The translations under genes and the position numbers were made by a program. Below the pieces are notes generated by a model. The model saw nothing but the letters and a program-made list of their open reading frames with translations, made no database searches and was not told the DNA's origin. Positions 2,695 through 28,231 of a stretch of DNA of 28,231 nt are shown here, one piece after another. Source of the stretch: Chloroflexota bacterium (GTDB lineage Bacteria; Chloroflexota; Dormibacteria; CF-121); contig VBFF01000114.1 of the NCBI GenBank assembly GCA_005889285.1, forward strand, positions 7,802-36,032. Reading direction: 5' to 3'. Numbering within the stretch: the stretch's first letter is position 1; each line of letters begins with the position of its first letter.

Positions 2695-2702
2695 GCCCGG
2701 CT

Positions 2703-3239
2703 TCAGCTGGCGAGCCGGTCGGATTCCCGGGTGCAGTAACGCGGATAGTGGGCGCGGTAGCCCACCAGCCATCCCACCGGGGCGAGGGCCGGGAGTCCGA
2801 GCCGCACCCATAGGGGTTGGCCTAGCGCCCGCGTTTCTCTGCGATAGGCCGCGGCGATCACGGCCCATTGGAGCATGTTGCCAACGCCGCGAAGGTGGTG
2901 GCGGCCGTCGCGAGCAAGCCCGAAGGTCGTTTCGGAGAACTCCTGCTTGAGCATGCCTGGCCGGAACTCGACTAATAGGTGGGCCTCCGCGTCTCCGGCG
3001 TTCCACAGGCAGTGCTCCGTGCGCGCCGGGATGGTCAGCTGCTGACCAGGCCCCAGCGTGAACCGGGCGCCGTGGATGGAAAACGAGGCGGTTCCGGAGA
3101 TCACGGTAAAGCGCGATTCCTGGACGGGGTGGATGTGGGGATCGCCGACGCTGCCGCCGGGCGCGAGCCAGGACTCGTACTGGACGAGCTCGCCGTTCGT
3201 TTCAGGGGCAGTCTTCAGGAACCGGATGAGCGGCGTCAC
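2703..3239 (-). CDS. Cupin-domain protein
   Basis: This 178-residue protein has a single cupin barrel. Motif 1 contains the metal-binding pattern DPHIHPVQESRF (two His and a Glu), and motif 2 is around IPARTEHCLWNAG with a His. The C-terminal ~60 residues are partly hydrophobic (LPALAPVGWLVGY) and may be amphipathic. It could be an enzyme or a small-molecule sensor; the sequence does not settle this. I take GTG 3239 because the frame upstream crosses the promoter and operator at 3260-3298 and is not cupin-like. It is the first gene of the minus-strand operon with the oxidase and methyltransferase. Confidence 0.72.
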   Translation of the reverse strand: MTPLIRFLKTAPETNGELVQYESWLAPGGSVGDPHIHPVQESRFTVISGTASFSIHGARFTLGPGQQLTIPARTEHCLWNAGDAEAHLLVEFRPGMLKQEFSETTFGLARDGRHHLRGVGNMLQWAVIAAAYRRETRALGQPLWVRLGLPALAPVGWLVGYRAHYPRYCTRESDRLAS

Positions 3240-4139: not shown

Positions 4140-5215
4140 ATCGCCGCGACGAACGACTCCGGCGTGAGCACGCCGCGGAAGTGATCCCCGTCCACCACCG
4201 CCACCCAGCTGGCTTGATGGATCAGCATCTGCGAAAAGGCGTCGTACAGCGTCCGGTCCGCGCCGATGAACGCCTCCAGGGGACGGGCTCGATCCGCAAC
4301 CCGGCCGTCGCCGGCAGTTGCGTCCCGATCTAGTTCGCCAACCGGCTTGTCGGTTCGATCGAGGACGATGACCCGGTCCCAGCGGCTGTCGAGCAACCGA
4401 CGAGCATCCGCCAGCGAATCCTCGGCGTGGACCACCGGCGGGCGGTCCAGCGCATTCAGGTCGATGGGCGTCACCGACAGGCGCTTGAGTCCGCGGTCGG
4501 GCCCCAGCAGGTCGATGACCAGGTCGGAGGCCGGCTTGGCCAGGATCGCGGCCGGGGTATCGTACTGCTCAAGGTGGCCCGCATTCATGATCGCGATCCG
4601 GTCACCCAGCTTGATGGCCTCGTCGATGTCGTGCGTGACGAAGATGACCGTCTTGCGCACCTCCCGCTGAATGCGGAGGAACTCGTTCTGCAAACGCTCT
4701 CGCGCGATCCGGTCGATCGCCCCGAAGGGTTCATCCATGAGCAGCACAGGGGGGTCGGCACCGAGGGCCCGAGCGACCCCCACGCGCTGACGCTGCCCAC
4801 CCGAAAGCTGATGCGGATAACGATGTCCGAACTCCTTCGGATCGAGGCCGACCAGTTCGAGCAGGTCATTGACGCGACGGCGGATCCGCTCCTTGTCCCA
4901 CCGGAGAAGCCGGGGCACCGTGGCCACGTTGTCCGCGATGCTCATGTGCGGAAAGAGGCCGACGTTCTGAATGACGTAGCCCATCCGCAGGCGAAGCACG
5001 ACCGGGTCGACATGGGTGACGTCCTGCTCGTCGTGAAAGATGCGGCCCTCAGACGGCTCGATCAGCCGGTTGATCATCTTCAGGGTCGTGGTCTTTCCGC
5101 AGCCCGACGGCCCAACGAGCATGGTCAGCTGACCGGTCTGGAACTCGATCGTCAGCTCGCGGACGGCGACCTGGCCGCCCGGAAAGCGCTTGGTGACCCG
5201 CTCCAGCCGAATCAT
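4100..5215 (-). CDS. opuCA: Osmoprotectant (glycine betaine/choline) ABC transporter ATP-binding protein with CBS region
   Basis: This is the ATPase of an OpuC/ProU-type importer for betaine, choline or carnitine. Walker A GPSGCGKTT is at residues 35-43, signature LSGGQ at 137-141, Walker B VLLMDEP at 157-163 and the switch His at 195. Residues ~250-371 form a C-terminal region resembling paired CBS domains, which in this family sense ionic strength or nucleotides. The 371-residue length suits OpuCA. The ATG is preceded by AGGAG six bases upstream. The gene is divergent from the two permeases and the lipoprotein, sharing a 55-nt promoter region with them. Its 3' end overlaps the convergent PhnD-like gene by 40 nt. 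Confidence 0.92.
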   Translation of the reverse strand: MIRLERVTKRFPGGQVAVRELTIEFQTGQLTMLVGPSGCGKTTTLKMINRLIEPSEGRIFHDEQDVTHVDPVVLRLRMGYVIQNVGLFPHMSIADNVATVPRLLRWDKERIRRRVNDLLELVGLDPKEFGHRYPHQLSGGQRQRVGVARALGADPPVLLMDEPFGAIDRIARERLQNEFLRIQREVRKTVIFVTHDIDEAIKLGDRIAIMNAGHLEQYDTPAAILAKPASDLVIDLLGPDRGLKRLSVTPIDLNALDRPPVVHAEDSLADARRLLDSRWDRVIVLDRTDKPVGELDRDATAGDGRVADRARPLEAFIGADRTLYDAFSQMLIHQASWVAVVDGDHFRGVLTPESFVAAIQRVPAELEGARR

Positions 5216-5234
5216 TAGAAACTCCTACTTTAAG

Positions 5235-5264
5235 TTGATTGCCTCCGGAATGCCCTGCTAGCAT
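5235..5264 (+). promoter_or_regulatory. Promoter of the osmoprotectant permease operon, probably leaderless
   Basis: TTGATT (5235-5240) and TAGCAT (5259-5264) are separated by 18 nt. The permease ATG at 5271 lies 6 nt after the -10 box, where transcription should begin, and there is no Shine-Dalgarno sequence. This predicts a leaderless message. Confidence 0.6.
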
Positions 5265-5270
5265 GCGGCA

Positions 5271-5954
5271 ATGCTCGCCACCGGGGTCGTGGGGGCGGTC
5301 GAAGACCCATGGATCCGGTGGTCCTGGATATCGGGTCACGCCGACATCATCGTCGCCGCCCTCGTCCAGCACATCCAGCTCACCCTGATCGCGGTGCTCG
5401 TCGGTCTCGCCATCGCCGTTCCCCTTGGGCTGGTGGCCTGGCGAAGCAGACTGTTCCGCGGGCCGATCTTTTCGCTTACCGGCATCCTCTATACCATCCC
5501 GTCGCTCGCGCTCTTCTCGCTGCTGTTACCGTTCACCGGCTTGACCATTTGGACCGCGGAGATCGGCCTCGTCGGCTACACGCTGCTGATCCTGGTTCGC
5601 AACATCGTGGTCGGGCTGAACGCGGTGCCCGACGAGGTGCGTGAAGCGGCCCGCGGGATGGGCTTCCGGCCGCTCGCCGAGCTGGCGCGGGTGGATTTAC
5701 CGCTGGCATTCCCTGCCATCATCGCCGGCGTACGCATCGCGACTGTTACCACCATCGGCCTCGTGACCGTGACGGCGTTAATCGGCGAGGGAGGCCTGGG
5801 AAGCCTGATCTACGACGGACTGCTTCGCGACTTCAAGACCCCATTGGTGGTTGGAACAGTGCTGTGCGTTGCGCTGGCGGTCATGTCCGACCTGGGCCTG
5901 GCTGGTCTGCAACGCGTGGTCACACCATGGGCGAGAAGTCGGGCGGTGCCATGA
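5271..5954 (+). CDS. Osmoprotectant ABC transporter permease 1
   Basis: A 227-residue inner-membrane permease of the binding-protein-dependent type, with about five to six helices. The cytoplasmic EAA loop reads VREAARGMGFRPLAELARVDLP (residues ~122-143), the contact site for the ATPase. The family end motif IGEGGLGSLIYDGL is present. It partners with the second permease, with which its stop overlaps as ATGA, and with the ATPase on the opposite strand. ATG 5271 follows the -10 box directly, so it is likely translated from a leaderless transcript. Two unequal permeases plus a lipoprotein is the OpuB/OpuC/OsmU layout. Confidence 0.9.
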   Translation: MLATGVVGAVEDPWIRWSWISGHADIIVAALVQHIQLTLIAVLVGLAIAVPLGLVAWRSRLFRGPIFSLTGILYTIPSLALFSLLLPFTGLTIWTAEIGLVGYTLLILVRNIVVGLNAVPDEVREAARGMGFRPLAELARVDLPLAFPAIIAGVRIATVTTIGLVTVTALIGEGGLGSLIYDGLLRDFKTPLVVGTVLCVALAVMSDLGLAGLQRVVTPWARSRAVP

Positions 5955-6703
5955 GCTTCTTCGGGCAAGTCATCCAATGGTTCCAGAACCCAGCGCATTG
6001 GCAGGGGGACGCAGGCATCCCACATCGGACCTTCGAGCACCTGTTGATGTCAGGAGCGTCGGTCTTGACCGCCGCGTTGATCGCGCTACCCATCGGGATC
6101 GCCGTGGGTCACTACGGCCGCGGTGGGATCATCGCAATCAACGTCTCGAATGTGGGCCGAGCGATACCCTCATTTGCCGTGCTGGTGCTCGCGGCGAAGC
6201 TCTTCGGGTTCGTGTCCGGCCCCAAAGTGCTTGGATTTGGCGCGGTTCCGGCGTTTGTGGCCCTCGTGGCGCTCGCGATCCCACCGATGGTGACCAACAG
6301 CTACATCGGGATGCGCGAGGTGGACCGTGACGTTCGCGAGGCCGCCCGCGGCATGGGGATGCGCGAGCGGGCCGTACTGTTGCGCGTCGAGCTCCCGATA
6401 GCAATGCCATTCATCATGGCCGGTATCCGGACATCAGCAGTAAACGTCGTGGCCACCGCAACGCTCGCGGCCGTGGTGGCGTGGGGAGGCCTCGGTCGGT
6501 TCATCCTCGACGGCTTCGGGCTCCAGGACTATCCCATGCTCTTCGCGGGCGCCGTCATGGTCGCCGTCCTGTCGCTGATCGTCGAATTCTCGCTCGCCGG
6601 CGTGCAGCGACTGTCCACGCCCGCCGGACTCCGGCCATCGAAGACAACCCAGAAGGAGGAACCCTTAGGATCATCACTCGACACGGCAGCCGTCGCGGCG
6701 TAG
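5951..6703 (+). CDS. Osmoprotectant ABC transporter permease 2
   Basis: A 250-residue membrane permease, homologous to the preceding one. It has an extra N-terminal segment (FFGQVIQWFQNPAHW) before the first helix. The EAA loop reads VREAARGMGMRERAVLLRVELP, and AWGGLGRFILDGFG follows helix 5. I use ATG 5951, which forms an ATGA overlap with the stop of permease 1; the longer frame to 5864 runs out of frame through permease 1. The C-terminal ~25 residues are polar and not conserved-looking. It should form the heterodimeric channel of the importer. Confidence 0.9.
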   Translation: MSFFGQVIQWFQNPAHWQGDAGIPHRTFEHLLMSGASVLTAALIALPIGIAVGHYGRGGIIAINVSNVGRAIPSFAVLVLAAKLFGFVSGPKVLGFGAVPAFVALVALAIPPMVTNSYIGMREVDRDVREAARGMGMRERAVLLRVELPIAMPFIMAGIRTSAVNVVATATLAAVVAWGGLGRFILDGFGLQDYPMLFAGAVMVAVLSLIVEFSLAGVQRLSTPAGLRPSKTTQKEEPLGSSLDTAAVAA

Positions 6704-6732
6704 TTTTCGGTCATTTTCTTGGAGGTGGAGCA

Positions 6733-7653
6733 ATGCGTCTAAAGCGAATTTTGGTCCTGGGCGCCAGCATGGTCGCCCTGTCCCTGGTCATAACCTCGTG
6801 CGGCTCAACAGGTGGGCCGTCCAGCTCGGCAAAAGCGACGATTCGGATCGCGTCCTTCAACTTTTCGGAAAGCATCATCCTCGCCCACATCTATGGCGAT
6901 GCTCTGAAGAACAAGGGCTACACGATCACCTATCGGGATAAGCTCGGTAATCGCGAGATCGTCGAGCCGTCGTTGGAGAACGGCCTGATCGATCTCTACG
7001 CGGGCTACGCCGCCACCGACCTCAACTTCGTCGACAAGCGCCAGAATGCGGACCTGGAGGCCGGCACCGACGCTGCCGCCAACGTGCAAAAGATCAATAC
7101 CCGACTCGCCAGCAAAGGTATCAAAGGCCTGGATCCCTCCCCCGCGGTGGATCAGAATGCCTTTGCGATTACCAAGGCCGAGGCTGACCAGTTTCATCTC
7201 ACCAAGCTCTCTGACGTGACCCCGGCGATCGCCAGCCAGTGGACGCTCGGCGGGCCGCCGGAGTGCCCGTCACGGCCGTTCTGCCAGCCCGGGCTCCAGC
7301 AAACGTACGGCTTGAAGTTCAAGGCGTTCAAGTCGCTCGACACCGGCGGACCTCTGACGTTCGCCGCGCTGAAGCAAGGTTCCATCAACATCGGTCTCGT
7401 CTTCTCCAGCGACGGCGGCATCACGGCGAACAACTTCGTCGTCCTCGAGGACGACAAGCATCTGCAGCAGGCGGACAACGTCGTGCCATTGATCCGGACG
7501 GACGTTTTGAACAGCGAGATCACGACGCTGTTGAACAGCATCGACGCCAAGCTGAACACGCCCGATCTCACGGCAATGAACAAGAGCGCGGACGTCGACA
7601 AGCAAGACCCGATCGATATCGCGAAGACCTGGGTCACGAGCCACGGGTTTTAG
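6733..7653 (+). CDS. Glycine betaine/quaternary-amine-binding lipoprotein
   Basis: A 306-residue substrate-binding lipoprotein of the OpuAC/OsmF type. The signal peptide is residues 1-22 with lipobox ITSC, so Cys23 would be lipidated and the protein anchored outside the membrane. The mature protein starts KATIRIASFNFSES, with LGNREIVEPSLENGLIDLYAGYAATDL typical of this group. The start is ATG 6733 with the strong ribosome site GGAGGTGGAG; the frame upstream overlaps permease 2 and lacks a signal sequence. It is third in the operon after the two permeases. Ligand class (betaine, choline, carnitine or ectoine-like) is inferred from family. Confidence 0.9.
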   Translation: MRLKRILVLGASMVALSLVITSCGSTGGPSSSAKATIRIASFNFSESIILAHIYGDALKNKGYTITYRDKLGNREIVEPSLENGLIDLYAGYAATDLNFVDKRQNADLEAGTDAAANVQKINTRLASKGIKGLDPSPAVDQNAFAITKAEADQFHLTKLSDVTPAIASQWTLGGPPECPSRPFCQPGLQQTYGLKFKAFKSLDTGGPLTFAALKQGSINIGLVFSSDGGITANNFVVLEDDKHLQQADNVVPLIRTDVLNSEITTLLNSIDAKLNTPDLTAMNKSADVDKQDPIDIAKTWVTSHGF

Positions 7654-14784: not shown

Positions 14785-15619
14785 CCGGCTCGAAGCCCTC
14801 GCCCGTCCAGTAACCGAGCATCTGCTCGGTCTCGTGGTAGAACCAGAGCAGGTACCGTTCTTTGGCCGCCTCCTTGAGAAAGGCCGCCTTGCGCTCCATC
14901 GCTTCCAAGGGAAAGAGGTCAAGCGCGCTGACCCAGTTGACCTTCAGGAAGGCGCGCATGAAGAGGAAGTCGCCGGTGAAGACGACGGTTTGTTCCTGGT
15001 CAGAAACGTACACCGCCTGGTGCCCGGCGGTGTGCCCACCAGTAACGCGCACCCGGATGCCGGGCGCGACCTCCTGGTCGCCGTCGACCACCTGCAGTCG
15101 CCCTTCCGCCTCGAGAACGGCCAGGTTCTCCGGTTTGTACGATGGCTTGCTGCGCGGATCCGGATGGCGCCAGGCTTCCAGCTCGGTCGCCTGGACGACG
15201 TGGCGCGCCCGCGGAAAGAGCGGTGTCAGCTCACCGTCCCGGCCCGGGGTGACGAGGGCTCCGATGTGGTCGAAGTGCAGGTGGCTGAGCACCACGAGAT
15301 CGATATCCTGCGCCTGGAGTCCCACACCGGCAAGCGCATCGGGGAGACCGGGATCCCGGTCGTAGGCCCAGATGTCGCGTTCCTTGTCGGAGAGCTTGGG
15401 GCCCATGCCCGCCTCGATCAGGATATTGGCGTCCGGCGTGCGGACGAGCATGCAATTCGTCGCCATCAAGATGCGGTTTCGCGCGTCCGGGGCCTTGAGC
15501 TTTTCCCACATGACCTTGGGCACCACGCCGAAGACCGAGCCGCCGTCCATGCGCCAGTGGCCGTCGCTCAAACACTGGAGCTCAAACCGGCCAAGCTTCC
15601 GGGGCGCGGCAGCGATCAC
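14777..15619 (-). CDS. MBL-fold metallohydrolase
   Basis: A 280-residue metallo-beta-lactamase-fold hydrolase with the dinuclear site [10 protein letters not shown], a later GGHTAGHQ His and the VFTGDFLF Asp. The overall plan resembles the AttM/AiiA lactonase group, which includes quorum-quenching lactonases and various thioesterase-like enzymes. It starts at GTG 15619, sharing a GTGA overlap with the stop codon of the B12-binding mutase subunit, so it is translated with the mutase operon. That suggests a substrate linked to acyl-CoA metabolism, for example a CoA thioester or lactone, but this is inference. Confidence 0.85.
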
Positions 15620-16029
15620 GCCGCCTTGAATCCGTGGTTCACGAAGTCGATGATCGATTGCAGGGAGGTCCCGGGGCCGAAGATCTCGACCACCCCCATC
15701 TTTTTCAGCTCGCGGGCGTCGTCCTGGGGGATGATGCCACCGCCGAACACCACGATGTCGGTGGCATTGCGCTGCTTGAGCAGCTCGAGAATGCGGGGAA
15801 TCAGCGTCATGTGCGCGCCGCTGTGCAGGCTGACGCCGATGGCGTCGACGTCTTCCTGAATGGCGGCTTCCACCACCATTTCTGGTGTCTGCCTGAGCCC
15901 GGCGTAGATCACCTCGACGCCCGCGTCACGCAACGCCCGCGAGACTACCTTGACCCCGCGGTCGTGGCCGTCGAGGCCCACTTTCGCGGTCAGCACCCGC
16001 CACTGCTTCTGGGTGTCGCGGGCGCTCAT
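15616..16029 (-). CDS. icmB: B12-binding small subunit of acyl-CoA mutase (IcmB/McmA2 type)
   Basis: A 137-residue cobalamin-binding protein: the free-standing small subunit of a coenzyme-B12 acyl-CoA mutase. The base-off B12 motif is DGHDRG at residues 20-25, with His22 as the axial cobalt ligand. SLHSGAH and [10 protein letters not shown] complete the nucleotide-loop pocket. The length matches IcmB of streptomycetes. ATG 16029 overlaps the stop of a 29-codon membrane peptide gene as ATGA. A longer frame reaching 17736 reads through the large-subunit gene in the wrong frame and is not a fusion. It should pair with the product of 16116-17768. Confidence 0.92.
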
Positions 16030-16115
16030 TGCCGGGTGAGATAGAAGGCCACGATGATGAAGACGGCCAGGCCGGCGAGGATCCGGCCAATCAGCGAGAA
16101 ACGAAGCTTGATCAT
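16026..16115 (-). CDS. 29-residue single-helix membrane peptide between the mutase subunits
   Basis: ATG at 16115 follows the stop TAG of the large mutase subunit without a gap, and the TGA overlaps the ATG of the small subunit as ATGA. The predicted 29-residue product starts [15 protein letters not shown], continues as a strongly hydrophobic helix ([10 protein letters not shown]) and ends TRQ. Two positive residues before the helix predict an N-in orientation. No ribosome site is visible apart from coupling to the preceding gene. No family is recognised. The perfect fit between two genes of one enzyme suggests it is translated; conservation in relatives would be the test. Confidence 0.6.
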
Positions 16116-17768
16116 CTAGAAGAGGATCGGCTCGCGATAGATGCCGAAGACCTCCTTGAGCGCGGCCATGATCTCGCCCTCGGTGGCATAGGCCTTGACA
16201 CAGTTCAGCAGTAGCGGCATCAGGTTGTCGCGGCCGCGCGCGGCCGCCTTCAGCTCCTCGAGGCGGTTGGTGACGCTCGTGTTGTCGCGCCGTGCCTTGA
16301 CGCCCTTCACCCGGCGCACCTGACCCTGCTCCGTCTCCGGGCCGATGCGCAAGGTGGGGACCTCCGCGCCTTCGCCATCCTTGTAGGCGTTGACGCCCAC
16401 GATGATCCGTTCGTTGGCTTCGAGCTTGCGCTCGAACTCGAAGGCGGCGTCGGCGATCTCGCGCTGGAAGAAGCCGTTTTCGATGCAGCGGAGGACGCCG
16501 CCCTGGGCGTCGATCTCGTCGAAGTAGCGTTGCGCCCCGCGCTCCATCTCGTCGGTGAGCTGCTCCACGAAGTAAGAACCACCCAGCGGGTCGATCGTGT
16601 TGGTGACGCCCGTTTCGTGAGCGAGCACCTGCTGGGTGCGCAGCGCGATCTGCGCCGCGCGCTCGGTGGGCAGCGCCAGGACTTCGTCCATCGAGTTGGT
16701 GTGCAGCGAGTTGGTTCCGCCCAGCACGGCCGCCATCGCTTCGTACGCGGTCCGGCTGATGTTGTTCTCCACCTGCTGGCGCGTCAGCGAGACACCGGCG
16801 GTCTGGGTGTGGAATCGCAGCATCCACGACTTCGGGTCCTTGGCGCCGTACTTGTCGCGCATCAGGCGCGCCCACAGCCGGCGGGCGGCGCGGAACTTGG
16901 CGATCTCCTCGAAGAAATCGATATGGGAGTCGAAGAAGAAGGAGAGGCGGGGCGCGAACTGGTCGACCTTCAGCCCAGCCTTGACCGAGGCCTCGACGTA
17001 GGCCATACCGTCGGCGAGGGTGAAAGCCAGCTCCTGGGTGGCGGTCGATCCGGCTTCGCGGATGTGGTAGCCGGAAATGGACACCGCGTTCCAGCGCGGC
17101 ATGTGTCGAGCCGCGAACACGATGGTATCGACCACGAGCCGCATCGACGGCTCCGGCGGAAAGATGTACTCCTTCTGCGCGATGTACTCCTTCAGGATGT
17201 CGTTCTGCAAGGTGCCGCCCAGCTTCTCCGGCGAGATACCTTCCTTCTCGCCGACGGCGATGTACATGGCGTAGAGGATCGCCGCCGGCGAGTTGATCGT
17301 CATCGAGGTGGTGATCTGGTCCAGCCGGATGCCCTGGAAGAGGGTTTCCATGTCCTCCAACGAGTCGATCGCCACGCCGCAATGGCCGACCTCGCCTGCA
17401 GCGAGCGGGTCGTCGGAGTCGTAGCCCATCAGGGTGGGCATGTCGAACGCCACCGAGAGGCCCGCCTGCCCCTGAGAGAGGAGGAACTTGTAGCGGCGAT
17501 TCGTCTCCTCCGCGGTCCCGTAGCCGGCGAACTGCCGAATGGTCCACGGTTGCCCGCGATACATCGAGGGATAGACGCCGCGCGTGTAGGGGAACTCGCC
17601 GGGATAGCCGAGCTTCTCCTCGTAACTCCACCCCTCCAGGTCCTCCGGGGTGTAGAGCGGCTGGAGCGGCACGCCGGACATCGTCGTCGCGTTTTCCTTC
17701 GGCACCAGCTTCCCGCTGCGATAGCGGGCGGCCCATTCCTCGTACGCCGTCTTGCGGCGAAGTGCCAT
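16116..17768 (-). CDS. icmA: Isobutyryl-CoA mutase-type large subunit (annotated in most pipelines as methylmalonyl-CoA mutase)
   Basis: A 550-residue TIM-barrel large subunit of a B12-dependent acyl-CoA mutase, lacking the B12 domain that is supplied by the product of 15616-16029. Family landmarks are [17 protein letters not shown] (~74-90), [29 protein letters not shown] (188-198), ISGYH and [11 protein letters not shown]. Methylmalonyl-CoA mutase has Tyr89 and Arg207 contacting the substrate carboxylate. This protein has Phe80 and Gln198 at the same places, the pair reported for isobutyryl-CoA mutase. It should therefore interconvert isobutyryl-CoA and n-butyryl-CoA. ATG 17768 has AAGGAGG 6 nt upstream and overlaps the meaB stop by 1 nt. 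2-Hydroxyisobutyryl- or pivalyl-CoA-type activity cannot be excluded. Confidence 0.88.
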
Positions 17769-18715
17769 CAGCTGCCTCCTTGCGATGCCCGCTGGTCGAG
17801 CACTTCCTCGGCCAGCGCGTATGGGTTTAGTTTCCCATTCTGGTTCTCGCGCACTCGCCGGCCGACCGCCGTATCGCCATCCAGGACCCGCCGCGCGTCC
17901 TCGCGGGCGCGGTCGGCAACGAGCGCCATGACTTCCTGCTTGAGGCGCTGCTGCCGCCGCGTGGCCAGCGTGCCGCTCTCGGTCAGGTAGGCCTGGTGCG
18001 CGCGCACCGCATCCCAGACCTGCGCGATGCCTTCCTCCTTGGCCGCGGAGGCCAGCACGATGGGCGCGCGCCAGGCCTGTTTCGGCCCGAGTCCCATGGC
18101 GTCCTGGATGAGGCGGCGCGTCTTCTCAGCGCCGCCCAGGTCGGTCTTGTTGATGACGAAGACGTCGGCGATTTCCAGGATGCCGGCCTTGATGCTCTGC
18201 ACCGCGTCGCCCGACTCTGGCATCAGCACCAGCACCACGGTGTCGCAGATGGTCGAGATCTCGAGCTCGGACTGGCCGACGCCGACGGTTTCGACCAGGA
18301 TCACGTCGCGCCCGTAGGCGTCCAGCAGGTGGATCGCCTCGCGGGTCGCGGCGGCCAGGCCGCCGAGGTGTCCGCGGGCGCCCATGCTGCGGATGAAGAC
18401 GCCTTTGTCGAGGGTATGACGCGACATGCGGATCCGGTCGCCGAGGACCGCCCCGCCGGTGAAGGGGCTGCTGGGGTCGACCGCGATCACCCCGACGGTC
18501 TGCTGCCGGTCCCGAATCACTTTGACCAGCGCGTCGGCCAGCGTGCTCTTGCCGGTCCCGGGTGCTCCGGTCAACCCGACCAGGTAGGCGTTTCCGGTGT
18601 GGGGCTGGACTTCGGCCACCAGCTGGCTCGCCTGCGGGTCGCGATCTTCCGCCAGGCTGATGGCCCGCGCCAGCGCCCGGACATCGCCGGAAAGTAAGGC
18701 GCCGGCCAAACTCAT
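17768..18715 (-). CDS. meaB: MeaB/ArgK-type G-protein chaperone of the B12 mutase
   Basis: A 315-residue GTPase that guards B12 mutases: it gates cofactor loading and removes damaged cobalamin. Walker [10 protein letters not shown] is at residues 50-58, switch region [27 protein letters not shown] is the G3 region and NKTD is the base-specificity motif. I prefer ATG 18715 ([11 protein letters not shown]), which matches the usual family start, over a GTG at 18739. The candidate -10 box TACGAT ends 10 nt before it, beside the palindromic repeat at 18744-18767. It is the first gene of the mutase operon, and its stop overlaps the large-subunit ATG by 1 nt. Confidence 0.93.
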
Positions 18716-18743
18716 CTCGATTCGAATCGTACCCCCCACCCTG

Positions 18744-20247: not shown

Positions 20248-21099
20248 ATGCGAACGAGTCCGGCGGGTCGACGCGCGCAGGGCCCGTTGGTGTTGCCAGC
20301 GCGCGTGCTGCTGCTGGCGGCCGGCATGCTCGCTGTCGCGCTGGCCAGCGTCAACCTCTACCCCGAGCGTCATAGCACCAACGTCGACGTTTACTACGTG
20401 GTGGTCGCCGGGTTGATCTACCTCATCTGGTTGGTGAGCCTTGTCCTTGCCTGGCGCGGTCTTCGCATCGGCGTCTTTATCGCCGGACTGATCGCCTTCG
20501 TCGAATTCGGCGTTATCGCAGCGGGGCACTTCGTGAACGCGCCCTATGACGTCCACATCCTCTCCCTCCACGAGGGTCTCTGGACCGCCACCGTGCTCAT
20601 GTCCATCCTGCCCGCCTGCGCGCTGACGGCGATGGCCGCGATTGTGTCGTGGGGCCATCCGACAGGCCGTCTCCACCGTCTGCAGACACTGCCGTTGCTG
20701 ATCGTCGCCGTGCTTGGCACGATCGCGGTCATCCTCTACTCCACCGACAGCCTCAGACGTGGCGACTTCGGGACGGCGAATGCGGAGGACGCGACCTTCG
20801 CCGCCGTCGCCGCCGCGATTGTCTGGCTGGTTGGCGCCTTCTGGTTGGCCCGGGTCCGGCTGGTAGGGGCGATCCTGATAGCGCTCGGCACCTTCATCCT
20901 GGTTTACTCATTCATCACTCTGCACGTGACCGCCGGCACCTCAGTGAGTGCCATCGCCAAAACGAGCGGACCCCTCTGGGCCGGCATCGGCCTGGCGATG
21001 GCTACGCTCGCCGCAGCATCATTCGTCGCGGCAGTGGCATTCCTGGTCAGCCCCTTGGTCTGGCGTCAATCGGCTAAGCGGGCGCCGTCCGGACCGTAA
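20248..21099 (+). CDS. Integral membrane protein with about eight helices, unknown function
   Basis: A 283-residue protein made almost wholly of hydrophobic segments. I count eight helices, near residues 17-36, 50-70, 74-98, 106-132, 146-164, 185-206, 210-234 and 244-276. A short charged N-terminus precedes helix 1. Loops are short; a His-rich stretch (YDVHILSLHEG) lies before helix 4. No transporter or enzyme motif is recognised. ATG 20248 is placed right after a -10 box; the frame upstream of it runs over the divergent LCP gene. The last 34 nt overlap the convergent 3-hydroxyacyl-CoA dehydrogenase gene. Confidence 0.78.
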   Translation: MRTSPAGRRAQGPLVLPARVLLLAAGMLAVALASVNLYPERHSTNVDVYYVVVAGLIYLIWLVSLVLAWRGLRIGVFIAGLIAFVEFGVIAAGHFVNAPYDVHILSLHEGLWTATVLMSILPACALTAMAAIVSWGHPTGRLHRLQTLPLLIVAVLGTIAVILYSTDSLRRGDFGTANAEDATFAAVAAAIVWLVGAFWLARVRLVGAILIALGTFILVYSFITLHVTAGTSVSAIAKTSGPLWAGIGLAMATLAAASFVAAVAFLVSPLVWRQSAKRAPSGP

Positions 21100-21941
21100 C
21101 GATAGAAGCCGCGGCCACTCTTTCGTCCGAAGTGGCCGGCATCGACCAGCTGGCGGAGCAAGGGGGGCGCGGCAAAGCGCGCGTCGTGGAGTCCCTCGTA
21201 GAGCACGCCGCAGATGTAGAGATGGGTGTCGAGGCCGACAAAATCGGCGAGCTCGAGCGGACCCATCGGGTGGTGCAGCCCGAGTCTGGCCCCCTGGTCG
21301 ATGTCCTCGCGCGTGCCCAGCCCTTCCGTCAACGCCCGAATCGCCTCATTGATGAAGGGCACCAGCATGCGGTTGACGATGAACCCTGGATAGTCGAGCG
21401 AGGTGATCGGGGTCTTGCCCAGCGCCTTCGACAGCTCGAGCGTCGCGGCCAGCGTCGCGTCGGAGGTATCGCGGCCTCGCGTGAGCTCCACGAGCGGCAT
21501 CACGGGGACCGGGTTGAAGAAATGCATGCCGATGAAACGATCAGGCCGCTTGGTGACCGCCGCCATCCGGGTGACGGGGATCGAGGAAGTGTTGCTGGCC
21601 AGGATCGCCTCCTCGCGGCAGATGCCGTCGAGCCGTTTGAAGAGATCGCGTTTCGCGTCGAAGTTCTCGGTGATCGCCTCGATCACGAAGTCCGCTCGTC
21701 CGGCCGCCTCCAGGGACGTGGTCGGGTGCAACCGGGCGAGCGCCGCGTCACGTTGGGCGGCCTCGAGCTTGCCCTTTTGCACGAGACTGTCAAGCCGCCG
21801 CTTGATGTTCTCGACTCCGCGGTTCACGAGGTTGTCGTCGACCTCGCGAAGCGTTACGTCGAAACCATGGCTGATCGCCGTCTGAGCGATCCCCGCTCCC
21901 ATCAGGCCGGCGCCGGCAACGTAGAGCTGTTTGATCGTCAC
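21066..21941 (-). CDS. hbd: 3-Hydroxyacyl-CoA (3-hydroxybutyryl-CoA) dehydrogenase
   Basis: A 291-residue NAD(P)-dependent dehydrogenase converting 3-hydroxybutyryl-CoA-type substrates to 3-ketoacyl-CoA. The Rossmann motif is GAGLMGAGIA, EAITENFDAKRDLF follows, and the catalytic His lies in GMHFFNPVPVMPLVE. NTSSIP and FIVNRML are also typical. The length is that of the single-function Hbd group rather than the large FadB fusion. GTG 21941 has AAGGAG upstream and overlaps the previous gene's stop as GTGA, so it is the last gene of the thiolase operon. Together with the two dehydrogenases and the thiolase it supplies all but the hydratase step of short-chain beta-oxidation. Confidence 0.93.
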   Translation of the reverse strand: MTIKQLYVAGAGLMGAGIAQTAISHGFDVTLREVDDNLVNRGVENIKRRLDSLVQKGKLEAAQRDAALARLHPTTSLEAAGRADFVIEAITENFDAKRDLFKRLDGICREEAILASNTSSIPVTRMAAVTKRPDRFIGMHFFNPVPVMPLVELTRGRDTSDATLAATLELSKALGKTPITSLDYPGFIVNRMLVPFINEAIRALTEGLGTREDIDQGARLGLHHPMGPLELADFVGLDTHLYICGVLYEGLHDARFAAPPLLRQLVDAGHFGRKSGRGFYRYGPDGARLAD

Positions 21942-23092
21942 CCCTTCTCCTTTAGCACTTCGCGCGCAATCACCAATCGTTGGATCTCGTTCGTCCCCTC
22001 GTAAATCTGCGTGATCTTGGCATCCCGCATCATCCGCTCGGCCGGAAAGTCGCGCAGGTACCCGTAGCCGCCCAGGATCTGGACCGCGTCGGTGGTGACG
22101 CGCATCGCCGTGTCCGAGGCGAAGACCTTCGCCACTGCCGAGCTGACATTGATGTCCGGCAGGCGGCGATCGAGCGCGTCCGCCGAGGCGTAAGTCAGGG
22201 CCCGGGCCGCCTCGATCTGGGTGGCCATGTCGGCGAGCATGAACTGGATCCCCTGGAACTCGATGATCGGTTTGCCGAACTGGCGCCGGTCGCGCGCGTA
22301 GCGGCGGGCGAGGTCGAAGGCACCCTCTGCGATGCCGAGCGCCTGCGCGGCGATCCCGGGACGGGAATGGTCCAGGACGCGCATCGCCAGCTTGAACCCT
22401 TCGCCCTCGTTGCCCAGCCGGTTGGCCGCCGGCAGCGCGAGATCCTCGAAGAAGAGTTGCGCGGTCGGCGATCCGCGGATTCCCATTTTCTTTTCGAGCT
22501 TGCCCACTTTGAAACCGGGCATCGACTTCTCCACGATGAAGGCGGAGATATCGCGCGCCGGCGCGTCACCGTTCTGGTCGGTGCGGGCGAAGACGACGAT
22601 GGTGTCGGCCACGCTCCCCCCGGTGATGAAGGTCTTGGAACCGTTCATCACGTAGGTGTCGCCGCGCCTGATCGCCCGCGTCCGCATCCCTCCGGCATCG
22701 GATCCCGAGCCTGGTTCGGTCAGCGCGAAGGCCGCCATCTGCTCGCCGCGCGCCAGCGGCGGCAGGTACTTGCGCTTCTGGTCCTCACTCCCCGCCAGCC
22801 AGATGGGCAGGCTGCCGAGCGACTGGACGCTCAGGATCAAGGACGACGTCGCGCAGAACTTGCTGATCTCCTCGACCGCCACGATCAGCGTGAGCGCGCT
22901 GCCGCTGACGCCACCGTACTCCGGCGTGAAGGGGATGGCGAGGATGTCGTGCTTCGCGAACAGCTCCTTGATGTCCCAGGGAAACTCGCCCGACTCGTCG
23001 ATCTGCGCCGCCCGTGGTTCGACCCGTTCGAGGCAGATGTCGTGGACCATCTCGCGGATCTCGCGCTGCTCATCGTTCAGTGCAAAATCCAT
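21938..23092 (-). CDS. Acyl-CoA dehydrogenase (second copy in operon)
   Basis: A 384-residue FAD-dependent dehydrogenase introducing the alpha-beta double bond in acyl-CoA. Visible features are [14 protein letters not shown] (FAD/substrate loop), [40 protein letters not shown] and [10 protein letters not shown], whose first Glu is the expected catalytic base. The real start is the ATG at 23092, which shares one base (TGATG) with the stop of the upstream dehydrogenase; a longer frame only overlaps that gene. Substrate chain length is not readable from these motifs, but operon partners favour short-chain or branched short-chain acyl-CoA. Confidence 0.92.
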
Positions 23093-24234
23093 CAGACACG
23101 CTCCAGCTCGCGGGCGATGACGACCCGCTGCACCTGGTTGGTCCCCTCGTAGATCTGGCACGCTTTGGCGTCGCGCACGCGTCGCGCCATCGGATATTCC
23201 TCGAGGTAGCCGTAACCGCCGAAGACCTGCAGGGCGTCGAGCGTGATCTCCATCGCGGCATCGGTGGCAAAGAGCTTGGCCATCGACGCCTCCCTGGTGA
23301 AGGGCAGCCCGGCATCGCAGAGCGCCGCCGCCTTCCAGGTCATCCAGCGGGCCGCCCGGATCTTGACGGCCATGTCGGCGACTTTGTTCTGGATCGTCTG
23401 CAGCTCGGCGATCGGTTTCCCGAACTGTTTGCGTTCTCTCGCGTACGCCACGGCGTCGTCGAGCGCGCCTTGCGCCAGCCCCAGGGCCTGGGCGCTGATC
23501 CCGATGCGTCCGCTGTCCAGCGCGCGCATCGCGATGCGGAAGCCCTGCCCCTCGTCACCCAGGCGATCGGCCTCGTCGACGGCACAATTTTCCAGGTAGA
23601 CTTCCGCGATCGCCGAGCCGTTGAGGCCCATCTTCTTGAACTTCGGGCCGACTTTGAGGCCGGGGTTGTCTCCACCAACGAGGAATGCCGTGATGCCGTC
23701 AGCGCCCGATCCCGGCTTCGTCGACGCCATGACGACGTACAGTCCCGCCTCGCCGGCATTGGTGATGAAGATCTTGGTTCCGTTGAGGAGGTAGCCGCCG
23801 TCGCGTCGGGTCGCCGTCGTCTTGAGATGGGCGGCATCGGAGCCGGCCTCCGGTTCTGTCAGCGCAAAGGCGGCGAGCTTCTTGCCCTGGGCCAGGTCCG
23901 GCAACCAGCGGCGCTTCTGCTCCTCGGAGCCAAAGAGCACCACGGGCTCGGTGCCCACCGAGTTATGGACGTCGAGGATGACCGCGGTGCTGGCGCAGAA
24001 GCGGGCGACCTCCTCGACGAAGATCGCGAAGGACAGGTGGTCGAGGCCGGCACCGCCATAGGCGTCGGGCACCAGGACCCCAAGCAATCCCAGCCTGGCG
24101 GCCTTGTCGACCAGGTCGCGCGGGAACTCGCTGTTGTGGTCGATCGCCTCGGCGCGCGGCTTGACCTCACGCTCGGCGAATTCCCGCGCGAGCGTGCGCA
24201 CCTCCTGCTGTTCGGGGCTGAGGGCAAGATCCAT
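23092..24234 (-). CDS. Acyl-CoA dehydrogenase (first copy in operon)
   Basis: A 380-residue homologue of the next gene. It carries [55 protein letters not shown] and [10 protein letters not shown], with the catalytic Glu in YEGT. The start ATG at 24234 follows the thiolase stop (TAG) with no gap. Two dehydrogenases side by side probably divide substrates, for example a straight short-chain acyl-CoA (butyryl-CoA from the mutase) and a branched one (isobutyryl- or isovaleryl-CoA). Which is which is not determined by sequence inspection. Confidence 0.92.
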
Positions 24235-25413
24235 CTAATTCACACGGACGATGGTCGCCTCGCCCTGTGCCATCCCGGAGCAGATGCCGGCCGCGCCGTA
24301 GCCGCCGCCCCGATGACGGAGGGCGTAGACGAGGTGCATCAGGATGCGCGCCCCGGACGCGCCGATCGGATGGCCGACCGCGAGCGCGCCGCCGTCGACG
24401 TTGACCCGTTGTTCATCGATCCCGAGCAGGTCCATGGCGGTGCAGGCCACCGCGGCGAAGGCCTCGTTGATCTCGAAGAGGCTCATGTCGTTGACCCGGA
24501 CCCCGAGCTTTTTCAGCGCCGCCTGGATCGAGGACGCCGGCACGGTGGCGAGATAGGGCGTGTCGGCCGCCGACTCGCCGTAGGCGAGCCACTGGGCGAG
24601 CGCCGGCAGATTCCGTCGTTTCGCCTCCGTCGCACTCATAAGCAGGATGGCGGTGGCGCCGTCGTTGACGCCGGGCGCATTGCCCGCCGTGACCGTCCCG
24701 TCCTCTGCGAAAACGGGCTTGAGCCGCGCCAGGCCCTCGATGGTGGTATCCGGCCGCGGCTGCTCGTCCGCCGCCACCTTCGAGGTGCCTTTGGAACTTG
24801 CCACCGCGATGGGGACGAGTTCCTCTGCGAAGAAGCCCGCCTTGAGGGCCGTCGCATACCGCTGCTGGCTGTTGTACGCGTATTCGTCCTGCCGTTGACG
24901 GGAGACCTCAAACTCTTTCGCGACCTGGCTGCCTTCCACCGCCATGTGACACCCGTTGGCCGGGTCGATCAGGCCGTCGCGAACCATGCTGTCGACCAAG
25001 GTGCTATCGCCAAGGCGGTAGCCGAAGCGCGCCTTCTCCAAGAGGTAGGGCGCCTGGCTCATGCTTTCCATGCCACCGGCCACGACCGCGCTGGCATCAC
25101 CGTGGCGGATGAGGAGCGCGGCGAGGTTGACGGCCTTGAGCGATGACGCGCACACCTTGTTGACGGTCAGCGCCGGCACGCTGGTGGGAACGCCCGCCTT
25201 GATGGCCGCCTGGCGGGCCGGGATCTGGCCCATACCGGCCGTGATGACGGTGCCCATGATCACCTGGTCAATGTCCCCGCCCTCGACGCGCGCGCGGTTG
25301 AGGACTTCCTTGATGACGGCGGCGCCCAGGTCGGGCGCCGTCAGAGTCGAGAGACCACCGCCCAGCTTGCCGAACGGCGTGCGGGCCGCCGCGACCAGGA
25401 CGACGTCCTCCAC
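24235..25413 (-). CDS. Acetyl-CoA acetyltransferase (thiolase)
   Basis: A 392-residue thiolase that splits acetoacetyl-CoA (or other 3-ketoacyl-CoA) with CoA, or forms it. The nucleophile Cys88 lies in NKVCASSLKAVNLA. NEAFAAVA, GHPIGASGARI (His348) and GICSGMAQGEA (Cys378) supply the other active-site loops. The last motif differs from the usual CGGGG-like ending but keeps the Cys. GTG 25413 is preceded by the -10 box TAGAAT ending 6 nt upstream, predicting a leaderless first gene for the thiolase-dehydrogenase operon. It is divergent from the enoyl-CoA hydratase gene. Confidence 0.94.
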   Translation of the reverse strand: MEDVVLVAAARTPFGKLGGGLSTLTAPDLGAAVIKEVLNRARVEGGDIDQVIMGTVITAGMGQIPARQAAIKAGVPTSVPALTVNKVCASSLKAVNLAALLIRHGDASAVVAGGMESMSQAPYLLEKARFGYRLGDSTLVDSMVRDGLIDPANGCHMAVEGSQVAKEFEVSRQRQDEYAYNSQQRYATALKAGFFAEELVPIAVASSKGTSKVAADEQPRPDTTIEGLARLKPVFAEDGTVTAGNAPGVNDGATAILLMSATEAKRRNLPALAQWLAYGESAADTPYLATVPASSIQAALKKLGVRVNDMSLFEINEAFAAVACTAMDLLGIDEQRVNVDGGALAVGHPIGASGARILMHLVYALRHRGGGYGAAGICSGMAQGEATIVRVN

Positions 25414-25425: not shown

Positions 25426-25458
25426 GGAGCGGGTGACGGAGCGCGAAATGACGCGCCA

Positions 25459-25464
25459 TATACT
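25459..25464 (+). promoter_or_regulatory. -10 box 7 nt before GTG 25472
   Basis: TATACT is followed by TGAGCCG and GTG, which begins the conserved N-terminus of the enoyl-CoA hydratase. This supports GTG 25472 over the in-frame GTG at 25433. Confidence 0.65.
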
Positions 25465-25471
25465 TGAGCCG

Positions 25472-26251
25472 GTGGAGTTCAAACACCTCCTCTATGGGCG
25501 GCGCGATACGGTCGCCACGATCACCATCAATCGCCCGGACAATCGCAACGCCCTCGGCACGGACACCGTCAAGGAGCTTCGCCAGGCGTTCGATCAAGCG
25601 AAGCACGACGAGGCGGTTCGCGTCATCATCCTGACCGGCGCGGGCAAGGTGTTCTGCGCCGGGGCCGACCTGCAGGGCTTCCGTCTCGAAATCTCGGAAC
25701 TGGACCGCTATTTCCAGCGGCGCAACCTCGCCGATCTGTTTCTGGAGATGACGGAGCTGGGCAAGCCCACCATCTGCCGCGTCAACGGCCACGCGCTGGC
25801 CGGCGGTTTCGGGCTGGTCGCCGCCTGTGACCTCGCCATCGCCTCGGATGCCGCCCAGTTCGGCATGCCGGAGGTCAACGTCGGGGTGTGGCCGATGATG
25901 ATCATGGCGATCGTGTTTCGCAACGTGCCGCGCAAGGCCGGCATGGAATTGATGCTGACGGGAAAGCGCATCGATGCGGACGAAGCCGTTCGCATCGGCC
26001 TCATCAACCGGCACGTCCCACTGGCACAGCTCGATAGCGAAGTCGATGCGCTCGCCGCCGAACTCGCCAGGAAGAGTCCCATCGGGATGCGGCTGGGCCT
26101 CGAGGCCTTTTATCGGATGCAGGACATGACCTTCCCGTCGGCGATCGCCTACCTCCAGGACCAGCTCGCCCTGCTCGGCCTGAGCGACGACCTGAAGGAG
26201 GGAGTCACGGCCTTCTTCGAAAAGCGCGAGCCGCGCTTCACCGGCAAATGA
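25472..26251 (+). CDS. Enoyl-CoA hydratase/isomerase family protein
   Basis: A 259-residue crotonase-fold protein acting on acyl-CoA thioesters. Oxyanion-hole elements are FCAGADLQGF and ALAGGFGLVAACD; GMPEVNVGVW follows. Of the two catalytic glutamates of rat crotonase (144 and 164), only the second is present (Glu134 here); the first position is Gly114. A hydratase normally needs both, while isomerases of the fold use one. The start GTG 25472 gives the usual family beginning (EFKHLLYGRRDTVATITINRP) and directly follows a -10 box. The stop overlaps the HMG-CoA lyase ATG as ATGA. Context with lyase and carboxylase resembles leucine degradation (Liu-type) sets. Confidence 0.88.
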   Translation: MEFKHLLYGRRDTVATITINRPDNRNALGTDTVKELRQAFDQAKHDEAVRVIILTGAGKVFCAGADLQGFRLEISELDRYFQRRNLADLFLEMTELGKPTICRVNGHALAGGFGLVAACDLAIASDAAQFGMPEVNVGVWPMMIMAIVFRNVPRKAGMELMLTGKRIDADEAVRIGLINRHVPLAQLDSEVDALAAELARKSPIGMRLGLEAFYRMQDMTFPSAIAYLQDQLALLGLSDDLKEGVTAFFEKREPRFTGK

Positions 26252-27162
26252 GCCAGGGCCTGACGGTCGACTGGGTGGAGGTCGGACCCCGCGATGGCTT
26301 GCAGAGCTGGCCGAGGACGTTGCCCACGCCGGCGAAGGTGGGCCTGGTGGCGAGCCTCCTCGACTGCGGCTTTCGACGAGTCGAAGCGACCTCCATGGTG
26401 CACCCGAAATGGGTGCCCCAGCTCGCCGACGCCGAGGCCGTGCTGGAGGCGCTGCAGGACCGGATCGATCAGTTGCGCGTGCTGGTCCCCAATCGGCGAG
26501 GCCTGGACCGCGCGCGCGACGCCGGCGTCCGAAACGTCGCGGTCACGGTGGCGGCGACCGATGGCTACAACGAGCACAACCTGAATCGCTCCGTCCGGGA
26601 AACCCTCGAGGAGATCCAAGTGATCGCCCAGGAGGCCCGGCGCGACAACATCGCCGTCGACGCCAGCGTGAGTGTGGCATTCGGTTGTCCCTATGACGGT
26701 GCGGTCGCTCCGGAGCGCGTTGCCGAGGTTGCCGCGGCATTGGCGGACGGAGGTATCGAGGAGATCTCGCTCGCCGACACAATCGGGGTCGCCAACCCGG
26801 CGCAGGTGGAGGCGCTCTTCCAGGCGATGAAAGAACGGCTTCCGGCCGTCCGCTGGGGTGCCCATTTCCACGACACGCGCGGCACGGCGATCGCCAATCT
26901 GCTCTCGGCCCTGGAGACCGGCGTCAACCTGTTCGAAGGCTCGGTCGGCGGCATCGGGGGCAGTCCCTTCGCGCCGGGCGCCGCCGGCAACATCTGCAGC
27001 GAGGATGCGCTGGCGATGCTCGACGCGATGGGCATCGCGACCGGCGTCGACGTCGCCCGGCTGATCGCCGTGGCTCGCGGACTCGAGCGCACGCTCGATG
27101 CCCCATTGCCCGGCAGGATTCACACGCTCGCCCCACCCGAAATCGGCACCGTCTCGGCATGA
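26248..27162 (+). CDS. Hydroxymethylglutaryl-CoA lyase family protein
   Basis: A 304-residue DRE-TIM metallolyase that in the typical case splits HMG-CoA to acetoacetate and acetyl-CoA. Metal and catalytic residues are visible: Arg15-Asp16 in VGPRDGLQ, Glu46, the HFHD pair (His206, His208) and Asn248. The mobile-loop motif reads GGSPFAPGAAGN, so the Cys that is Cys266 in human lyase is Ser239 here. Activity may be lower or directed to another 3-hydroxy-3-methyl or citramalyl-type CoA ester. The gene overlaps both neighbours by 4 nt (ATGA), forming a tight operon with the hydratase and the carboxylase subunit. Confidence 0.88.
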   Translation: MSQGLTVDWVEVGPRDGLQSWPRTLPTPAKVGLVASLLDCGFRRVEATSMVHPKWVPQLADAEAVLEALQDRIDQLRVLVPNRRGLDRARDAGVRNVAVTVAATDGYNEHNLNRSVRETLEEIQVIAQEARRDNIAVDASVSVAFGCPYDGAVAPERVAEVAAALADGGIEEISLADTIGVANPAQVEALFQAMKERLPAVRWGAHFHDTRGTAIANLLSALETGVNLFEGSVGGIGGSPFAPGAAGNICSEDALAMLDAMGIATGVDVARLIAVARGLERTLDAPLPGRIHTLAPPEIGTVSA

Positions 27163-28231
27163 GCACCCCCGATCCGCTGCCAAACCGGGAACCCGCGGAT
27201 GAGCTCAAGGCTCGATCCGAGACCGCGCGGGCCGGCGGCTCCGCGAAGTACGCTGAAAAGCTGCGCCAGGAGCACAAGCTACCGGTGCGCCGGCGGCTCG
27301 AACTGCTGCTCGACCCCGATTTCCTGATCGAGGATGGGCTCCTCGCCCACAGCGAAGAAGCCGGTTACGGCGCCGATGGTGTCGTGACCGTCATCGGCCG
27401 GATCGATGGGCGGACGGTGTGCGTGATGGCGAACGACCCGACGGTCAAGGCGGGATCGTGGGGACCGCGCACCGTGGAGAAGATCGTCCGCATCCAGGAG
27501 ACGGCGGAGCGGCTTCGCGTGCCGATCTTCTACCTCGTGGACTCGGCGGGCGCCCGCATCACCGACCAGGTACAGATGTTCCCGGGACGCCGCCACGCCG
27601 GTCGCATCTTCTACCAGGAAGTGCGGCTCTCGGGTGTGGTGCCGCAGATCTGCCTGCTCTTCGGGCCATCGGCGGCGGGCGGCGCGTACATCCCCGCCTT
27701 CTGCGACATCACCATCATGGTCGAGGGCAACGCCAGCATGTACCTCGGGTCACCGCGCATGGCGGAGATGGTGATTGGCGAGAAGGTGACGCTGGAAGAA
27801 ATGGGCGGGGCCCGGATGCACTCGACGGTGAGCGGCCTCTCGGACCTGCTGGCGGCATCCGACGAAGACGCCATTGCGGCCGGACGCCGCTATCTCTCCT
27901 TTTTCCCGCAGAACTGGACCGAGATGCCGCATTCGGGTCTCTCGGTCGAGGCTCGGCCGCCGGTGCCACTGGAAACGCTCGTCCCCGAGGACGAGGGGCG
28001 AGCGTTCAACATGCAGCAGTTGATCGACGGCGTGATCGACGCGGGCTCCTTCTTCGAGGTCAAGCCGCTCTATGCGAAGGAGATCATCTGCGGCCTCGCC
28101 CGCGTCGACGGGCGGGCGGTCGGCGTCGTTGCCAACCAGCCGATGCACAAGGGTGGCATCCTCTTCGTCGATTCCGCCGACAAGGCGGCCCGCTTCATCG
28201 GGCTCTGCGATGCGTTCAACATCCCACTGCT
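27159..28231 (+). CDS. Acyl-CoA carboxylase beta (carboxyltransferase) subunit, partial at right edge
   Basis: At least 357 codons of a biotin-dependent acyl-CoA carboxylase carboxyltransferase subunit; the window ends before its stop. The N-terminal domain shows RRRLELLLDPDFLIEDG, FYLVDSAGARITDQ (acyl-CoA site), GPSAAGGAYIPAFCD and GSPRMAEMVIGEKVTLEEMGG. The second crotonase-like domain begins near FNMQQLIDGVIDAGSFFEVKP, with GVVANQPMHKGGIL. ATG 27159 overlaps the lyase stop as ATGA. Propionyl-, methylcrotonyl- or geranyl-CoA specificity cannot be read here. Next to an HMG-CoA-lyase-like gene, methylcrotonyl-CoA (leucine pathway) is the best guess. Confidence 0.92.
   Translation, partial: MSTPDPLPNREPADELKARSETARAGGSAKYAEKLRQEHKLPVRRRLELLLDPDFLIEDGLLAHSEEAGYGADGVVTVIGRIDGRTVCVMANDPTVKAGSWGPRTVEKIVRIQETAERLRVPIFYLVDSAGARITDQVQMFPGRRHAGRIFYQEVRLSGVVPQICLLFGPSAAGGAYIPAFCDITIMVEGNASMYLGSPRMAEMVIGEKVTLEEMGGARMHSTVSGLSDLLAASDEDAIAAGRRYLSFFPQNWTEMPHSGLSVEARPPVPLETLVPEDEGRAFNMQQLIDGVIDAGSFFEVKPLYAKEIICGLARVDGRAVGVVANQPMHKGGILFVDSADKAARFIGLCDAFNIPL

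Follow-up and report, generated by a model that had tools for sequence, protein, structure and literature searches.

An isobutyryl-CoA mutase-type gene in a Chloroflexota bacterium, and a B12-binding subunit probably shared with methylmalonyl-CoA mutase

The gene at positions 16116 to 17768, originally predicted from two residues to be an isobutyryl-CoA mutase (ICM), very probably encodes a mutase alpha subunit of this type and not a methylmalonyl-CoA mutase (MCM) or a 2-hydroxyisobutyryl-CoA mutase (HCM); its specificity residues, phylogenetic placement and gene neighbours agree. We judge with fairly high confidence that the product of its operon (meaB, alpha, micro-ORF, beta) is an adenosylcobalamin (AdoCbl)-dependent ICM and that the single-copy beta subunit and MeaB also serve a separate MCM alpha. 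The window, i.e., the whole stretch of 28,231 nucleotides analyzed, spans bases 7802 to 36032 of a 36032-base contig. It belongs to a 1.73-Mb assembly (G000) that is 82% complete and contains one mutase alpha, one mutase-type B12 subunit, and one MeaB. The operon comprises:

15616..16029, minus strand, B12-binding (beta) subunit, 137 aa (TIGR00640, 168.8 bits, cut-off 57.45; PF02310)
16026..16115, minus strand, micro-ORF of 29 aa, predicted single helix, with its ATG directly past the alpha stop and its own stop overlapping the beta start (ATGA)
16116..17768, minus strand, ICM-type acyl-CoA mutase alpha subunit (predicted), 550 aa plus stop (Phe80/Gln198, Ala107, Leu113, Lys199)
17768..18739, minus strand, MeaB GTPase chaperone, 323 aa (TIGR00750, 334.9 bits, cut-off 240.75), with its stop overlapping the alpha start (TGATG)

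Specificity residues and phylogeny of the alpha subunit

The ORF translation and a phmmer alignment to the Propionibacterium MCM alpha chain (5req_A) confirm that Phe80 and Gln198 occupy the places of Tyr89 and Arg207 of MCM. The likeness of the sequence to mutases of known structure is enough to establish the fold. Phe80 lies within the ten-residue stretch inspected and Gln198 within one of twelve residues, ten past Gln188 of the QND motif. These residues align with chain positions 88 and 206 of 5req_A, which we take to be residues 89 and 207 (an offset of one). The alpha thus lacks the Tyr/Arg pair that marks MCM and has, at both specificity positions, the Phe/Gln pair that marks ICM. 5req_A itself shows Phe at the first position; as we take this structure to be the Y89F mutant, it was not counted as a natural exception. 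The claimed likeness to IcmA of Streptomyces cinnamonensis, presumably also Phe80/Gln198, holds for residue identity. The exact match in numbering carries no weight in our view, because N-termini vary. Separation of acyl-CoA mutases by these two positions is published, and its application here is new; the section of PMC7238569 consulted, citing Jost 2015, gives Tyr-92/Arg-210 as the MCM mark.

Residue classes were counted across 199 distinct mutase alphas with more than 430 matched residues. Phe/Gln (F/Q) was found in 127 (128 with the fused IcmF), Tyr/Arg (Y/R) in 66, Ile/Gln (I/Q) in three, and Leu/Asn (L/N) in one, while one lacked position 80; there were no F/R or Y/Q hybrids among the 199. 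Three further positions split along with the pairs (counts without IcmF). Position 113 was Leu (123) or Ile (4) in F/Q enzymes and Gln (65) or His (1) in Y/R enzymes. Position 199 was Lys in 127/127 F/Q enzymes and in no Y/R enzyme, where it was Gly, Asn, or Ala; position 200 was Glu in 120 of the 127 and Thr in 63 of the 66, respectively. The lack of hybrids and this parallel split argue that the F/Q pairing is not due to chance. Among the best 80 of at least 584 relatives from genome contigs, 79 loci carried an F/Q alpha, a count to be read with the use of KEYIAQKE, which favors Gln198, as one of six search peptides. The sole exception (L043) was Y/R, and one locus (L048) had one alpha of each type. 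The I/Q enzymes were a Methylibium plasmid gene, a Xanthobacter plasmid gene, and one gene from genome G040; all three have Asp at position 107, where the query has Ala. Three Streptomyces plasmid mutases were Y/R.

Some rarer forms were also seen. An HCM-like alpha with Ile at 80, Asp at 107, and Gln at 198 lies on contig C116 of G040 (L176, 175-1764, minus strand); this genome, of the same class as the query, additionally encodes alphas of the F/Q and Y/R types together with one over-cut-off B12 subunit. Divergent Y/R alphas (TYTGFG, ALDLPTQ; 48-49% identity) occur in L195, L197, and L202, accompanied at a distance of about 6 kb by a B12 subunit of lower score. The L/N alpha, on a Sulfitobacter plasmid (L217, 2956-4647), has PCNSVYRG in place of FDMPTLMG and adjoins its own B12 subunit and MeaB.

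In a fast IQ-TREE reconstruction from 93 rows with the trait residues masked, all 35 Y/R rows formed one clade (SH-aLRT 99); among its members were a Sinorhizobium gene labeled scpA and the Ilyobacter gene located in an epimerase cluster. The query fell outside this clade, so that the placement inside MCM that would have told against the original prediction did not occur. It was placed among F/Q rows beside its own genus, and a 40-row set with a support of 94 unites it with an IcmA-like group of four. That group includes the actinobacterial proteins P0136 and P0226, named isobutyryl-CoA mutases by their source rather than by characterization; their motifs are those of the query. The F/Q rows form a grade rather than a single clade, with Y/R (MCM) and I/Q (HCM) nested inside, in a tree whose root rests on the very long IcmF branch (total length 4.65). 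F/Q therefore need not mean one substrate.

Homology labels name a different enzyme, as had been anticipated. The sole over-cut-off NCBIfam match of the alpha is ‘methylmalonyl-CoA mutase N-terminal domain’, and the source names shown within at least 120 listed homologues are methylmalonyl-CoA mutase; close homologues with organism names come from Candidatus Dormibacteraeota/Dormibacter or Chloroflexi. The MCM equivalog model scores 660.8 on the query against a cut-off of 876. This shortfall is silent on specificity, since a Y/R alpha from a congener also falls short (621.7). The misnaming of a fused ICM (IcmF) as MCM is already described in the portion of PMC7764203 consulted.

Gene neighborhood and predicted pathway

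The genes around the operon fit a catabolic route from isobutyryl-CoA to butyryl-CoA. Genes for two acyl-CoA dehydrogenases lie upstream of it on the same strand, between those for a 3-hydroxybutyryl-CoA dehydrogenase and a thiolase; a divergent crotonase gene and genes of leucine type follow on the plus strand:

21066..21941, minus strand, 3-hydroxybutyryl-CoA dehydrogenase-like protein, 291 aa (PRK05808, 380.9 bits, below 408; PRK07819, 322.7 bits, over 319)
21938..23161, minus strand, acyl-CoA dehydrogenase 2, no specific NCBIfam model at cut-off; its true start may be internal, near 23095
23092..24234, minus strand, acyl-CoA dehydrogenase 1, 380 aa, no specific NCBIfam model at cut-off
24235..25413, minus strand, acetyl-CoA acetyltransferase (thiolase), 392 aa (PRK08235, 526 bits, equal to the cut-off of 526)
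25433..26251, plus strand, divergent enoyl-CoA hydratase family protein (crotonase) (PF00378), no shown NCBIfam model at cut-off
26248..27162, plus strand, hydroxymethylglutaryl-CoA lyase of the leucine branch (PRK05692, 332.9 bits, cut-off 246; PF00682)
27159..28229, plus strand, acyl-CoA carboxylase carboxyltransferase subunit, truncated at the end of the contig

In the pathway that we propose, an acyl-CoA would bind in the barrel of the alpha subunit. Because Phe80 and Gln198 replace the Tyr/Arg pair that holds the carboxylate of methylmalonyl-CoA, the pocket would accept an uncharged, branched C4 acyl group. The beta subunit would carry AdoCbl, with cofactor loading gated by MeaB, and the mutase would interconvert isobutyryl-CoA (e.g., from valine) and n-butyryl-CoA. 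The latter would then be converted to acetyl-CoA by the neighboring acyl-CoA dehydrogenase, crotonase, 3-hydroxybutyryl-CoA dehydrogenase, and thiolase. This neighbor set would be sufficient for the route from isobutyryl-CoA through butyryl-CoA to acetyl-CoA; the substrates of the dehydrogenases and crotonase are predicted, since no specific model matched these proteins over its cut-off. The reaction and its direction are likewise predicted, from the observed residues, tree, and gene order.

Parts of the neighborhood recur across the 80 loci, many of which are short: acyl-CoA dehydrogenase 2 in 16, the thiolase in 12, and the 3-hydroxybutyryl-CoA dehydrogenase in nine. With respect to other steps of valine degradation, the HIBADH equivalog matched over its cut-off in 0/61 genomes of the class and 1/14 controls, with weaker homologues in 61/61. 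MMSDH was over its cut-off in 45 of the 61, not including G000. No B12 riboswitch matched an Rfam model at gathering score in the window. Elsewhere in the window, translated ORFs resemble an osmoprotectant-type ABC transporter set (ATPase, two permeases, and binding protein; 4100-7653), near methyltransferase-like and FAD oxidoreductase-like ORFs (504-3006).

The alpha-beta spacer was examined in 18 loci. A 29-codon frame whose ATG lies directly 3' of the alpha stop was found in 10 near relatives, i.e., eight that are members of the genus or the window itself, L004, and L002 (90% identity). Short spacers without it were found in L018, L082, and L094, and in the other five loci the beta gene was not found within the stretch read. 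The stop of the micro-ORF overlaps a possible beta start in nine of the 10, two of these starts being TTG. Mean pN/pS was 0.47, compared to 0.92 and 2.04 in the two other frames, and pN was lower than pS in 44 of 45 pairs. The product looks like a single membrane helix, and the micro-ORF might preserve translational coupling or have a role at the membrane.

Placement of epimerase and MeaB, and probable sharing of the B12 subunit by two alphas

The class set comprised 61 genomes, namely G000 and 60 relatives, in which 130 alphas reached 300 matched positions and 22 of these remained untyped. With adjacency set at 600 bases, the 58 methylmalonyl-CoA epimerases over the cut-off comprised 48 beside a typed Y/R alpha, none beside an F/Q alpha, eight beside an untyped alpha, and two beside no alpha. 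The 56 MeaB proteins over the cut-off (in 55 genomes) lay beside a typed F/Q alpha in 46 cases, a Y/R alpha in none, an untyped alpha in six, and no alpha in four. Considering typed cases only, the epimerase accompanies the Y/R alpha in 48/48 and MeaB the F/Q alpha in 46/46. In the congener G003, the epimerase gene (136.4 bits on TIGR03081, cut-off 114.95) shares an operon with the gene for a Y/R mutase alpha (L111, 5988-7589) and those for a carboxyltransferase and a succinyl-CoA ligase (SucC and SucD, both over cut-off). This operon lies about 21 kb from the F/Q alpha and has no adjoining B12 subunit. Two loci show other arrangements: in L052 (4628-6835), outside the class, an F/Q alpha adjoins an epimerase-like frame with 38% identity to the G003 epimerase, and in L048 (4404-9638) an epimerase-like frame lies between Y/R and F/Q alphas.

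In the four relatives from the query's family that carry both alphas on one contig (G001, G002, G003, and G016), the Y/R and F/Q alphas are 20-24 kb apart. The contig of G000 breaks off within the gene for the carboxyltransferase, at about 10.5 kb beyond its F/Q alpha, and the place of the MCM alpha seen in G003 would fall beyond this end. Given this distance and the 82% completeness of the assembly, we do not claim that G000 has lost MCM. Its only TIGR03081 match scores 23.4 bits, below the cut-off, and is on another contig.

The original prediction also cited the split architecture (550 and 137 aa) and adjacent MeaB as ICM features. Both are present, but they weigh little and were rejected as evidence for ICM: a split MCM from Ilyobacter (L220) has a Y/R alpha, B12 subunit, MeaB, and epimerase in a row, and in the class the B12 subunit and MeaB themselves look shared.

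Gene counts point to such sharing. Nearly all of the genomes counted are draft assemblies. At least two alphas of at least 300 matched positions were present in 52/61 class genomes; 47 of the 61 combined at least two alphas with exactly one beta over the cut-off, and five had at least two of both. In the 35 genomes at least 90% complete, alphas outnumbered betas in 34, equaled them in one, and were fewer in none. Both alpha types could be read in 39 class genomes, and 35 of these had one beta and one MeaB. The position of the beta varies among families: it usually follows the F/Q alpha in f1 and f3, is 2.7-3.9 kb from it in f4 where the two share a contig, and in f2 sits on a different contig or no closer than 47 kb to any alpha. 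Of the five multi-beta genomes, three (G021, G023, and G031) have a divergent Y/R alpha with a beta at a distance of about 6 kb. As G000 itself has one mutase and no epimerase over the cut-off, with its beta the only TIGR00640 match found, sharing is read from its relatives.

The pattern extends to other lineages, sampled by our choice as 26 genomes with loci among the 80. At least two alphas with a single beta were found in 18/26, and each of these 18 genomes has alphas of both the F/Q and the R type, the R-type alpha of G086 being a fragment without position 80. G063 and G081 each have one alpha and one beta. The remaining six combine multiple alphas with two or three betas; these are G062, G066, G073, and G080, as well as G067 and G071, in both of which an MCM-like frame appears to carry a fused B12 domain of its own and a separate beta is present. 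In G079, three alphas and a single beta lie on one 2.6-Mb contig of about genome size, which makes this case independent of assembly fragmentation.

It is possible, though unlikely, that the MCM alpha instead pairs with a B12 protein of its own that went unrecognized, with nothing shared. Weak TIGR00640 matches do exist, yet matches to this model were listed down to about 20 bits, including frames of 1100-1500 aa taken for methionine synthase, and a mutase beta would therefore be expected to show up. Two of the weak matches were examined, and both resemble corrinoid proteins of methyltransferases, with MtgC as best NCBIfam model (194.6 bits, below 370). The single MeaB and beta in 35 of the 39 genomes with both alphas typed also argue against a second B12 protein. 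Regions of two congeners, L223 (93-950; also matching B12-binding_2) and L224 (255-1034), resemble such methyltransferase proteins (MtgC/MtbC type, below cut-offs).

The gene counts suggest that ICM and MCM both depend on a single B12 subunit and a single MeaB. The separate Y/R alpha, encoded in G003 in the epimerase operon, would draw on the same beta and MeaB as the F/Q alpha. In the class and in other lineages, an AdoCbl-binding B12 subunit and MeaB are thus probably common to the two alphas, placing valine/butyrate and propionate catabolism on one module for which they could compete. Among the titles and abstract beginnings of the open-license literature searched, none described a shared small mutase subunit.

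Comparison with known systems and significance

Among the closest known systems is IcmA/IcmB of S. cinnamonensis, with which the query shares a separate B12 subunit as well as the residue pair. It differs in the apparent sharing of the B12 subunit and MeaB with an MCM alpha, the micro-ORF in the operon, and its phylum. IcmF of Ideonella has the F/Q pair (tblastn alignment) and also lies beside 3-hydroxybutyryl-CoA and acyl-CoA dehydrogenases, but joins beta, G-domain, and alpha in one chain. These are separate ORFs in the window, and the query has 35% identity to IcmF and scores 358.6 bits against a cut-off of 1500 on its model.

Some doubt attaches to the substrate: there is a small chance that this F/Q mutase acts on another uncharged one, either 2-hydroxyisobutyryl-/3-hydroxybutyryl-CoA (HCM/RCM) or pivalyl-/isovaleryl-CoA. 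The F/Q grade and the nearby 3-hydroxybutyryl-CoA dehydrogenase are in line with this, as is the best solved-structure match, HCM (HcmA/HcmB, 4r3u; 578 bits, above MCM at 500), and so is an RCM form, distant from HCM, that PMC7176365 describes. The query resembles HCM in split architecture and Gln198, and its identity to the genes of Methylibium and Xanthobacter is about 50%. Nevertheless, it has Phe and Ala at positions 80 and 107, where the HCM references read Ile and Asp, presumably Ile90 and Asp117 in HCM numbering. No 2-hydroxyisobutyrate-CoA ligase, moreover, is among its annotated neighbors. The part of PMC7176365 consulted describes this ligase as accompanying HCM/RCM genes.

That the alpha is an ordinary split MCM is very improbable, even though family models and database names say MCM, split MCMs with MeaB exist (Ilyobacter L220 and congener L111 share PF01642 and split subunits with the query, and Ilyobacter also MeaB), and the query is the only mutase in G000, which the contig end and incomplete assembly explain, since the Tyr/Arg pair shared by the 66 MCM-type alphas is missing from it, it lies outside their clade, and no epimerase was found nearby, whereas the 48 typed cases in the class put the epimerase by the Y/R alpha.

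An ICM remains the preferred reading of the operon, and with it a large group of genes widely misnamed ‘methylmalonyl-CoA mutase’ moves to ICM. This changes the predicted metabolism of valine, isobutyrate, and propionate in uncultured soil bacteria. Corrinoid methyltransferase systems can be modular; should the B12 subunit prove to be shared, the same would hold for AdoCbl mutases. Two pathways would then divide one cofactor pool, and annotation rules presuming that each beta has a single alpha would be wrong.
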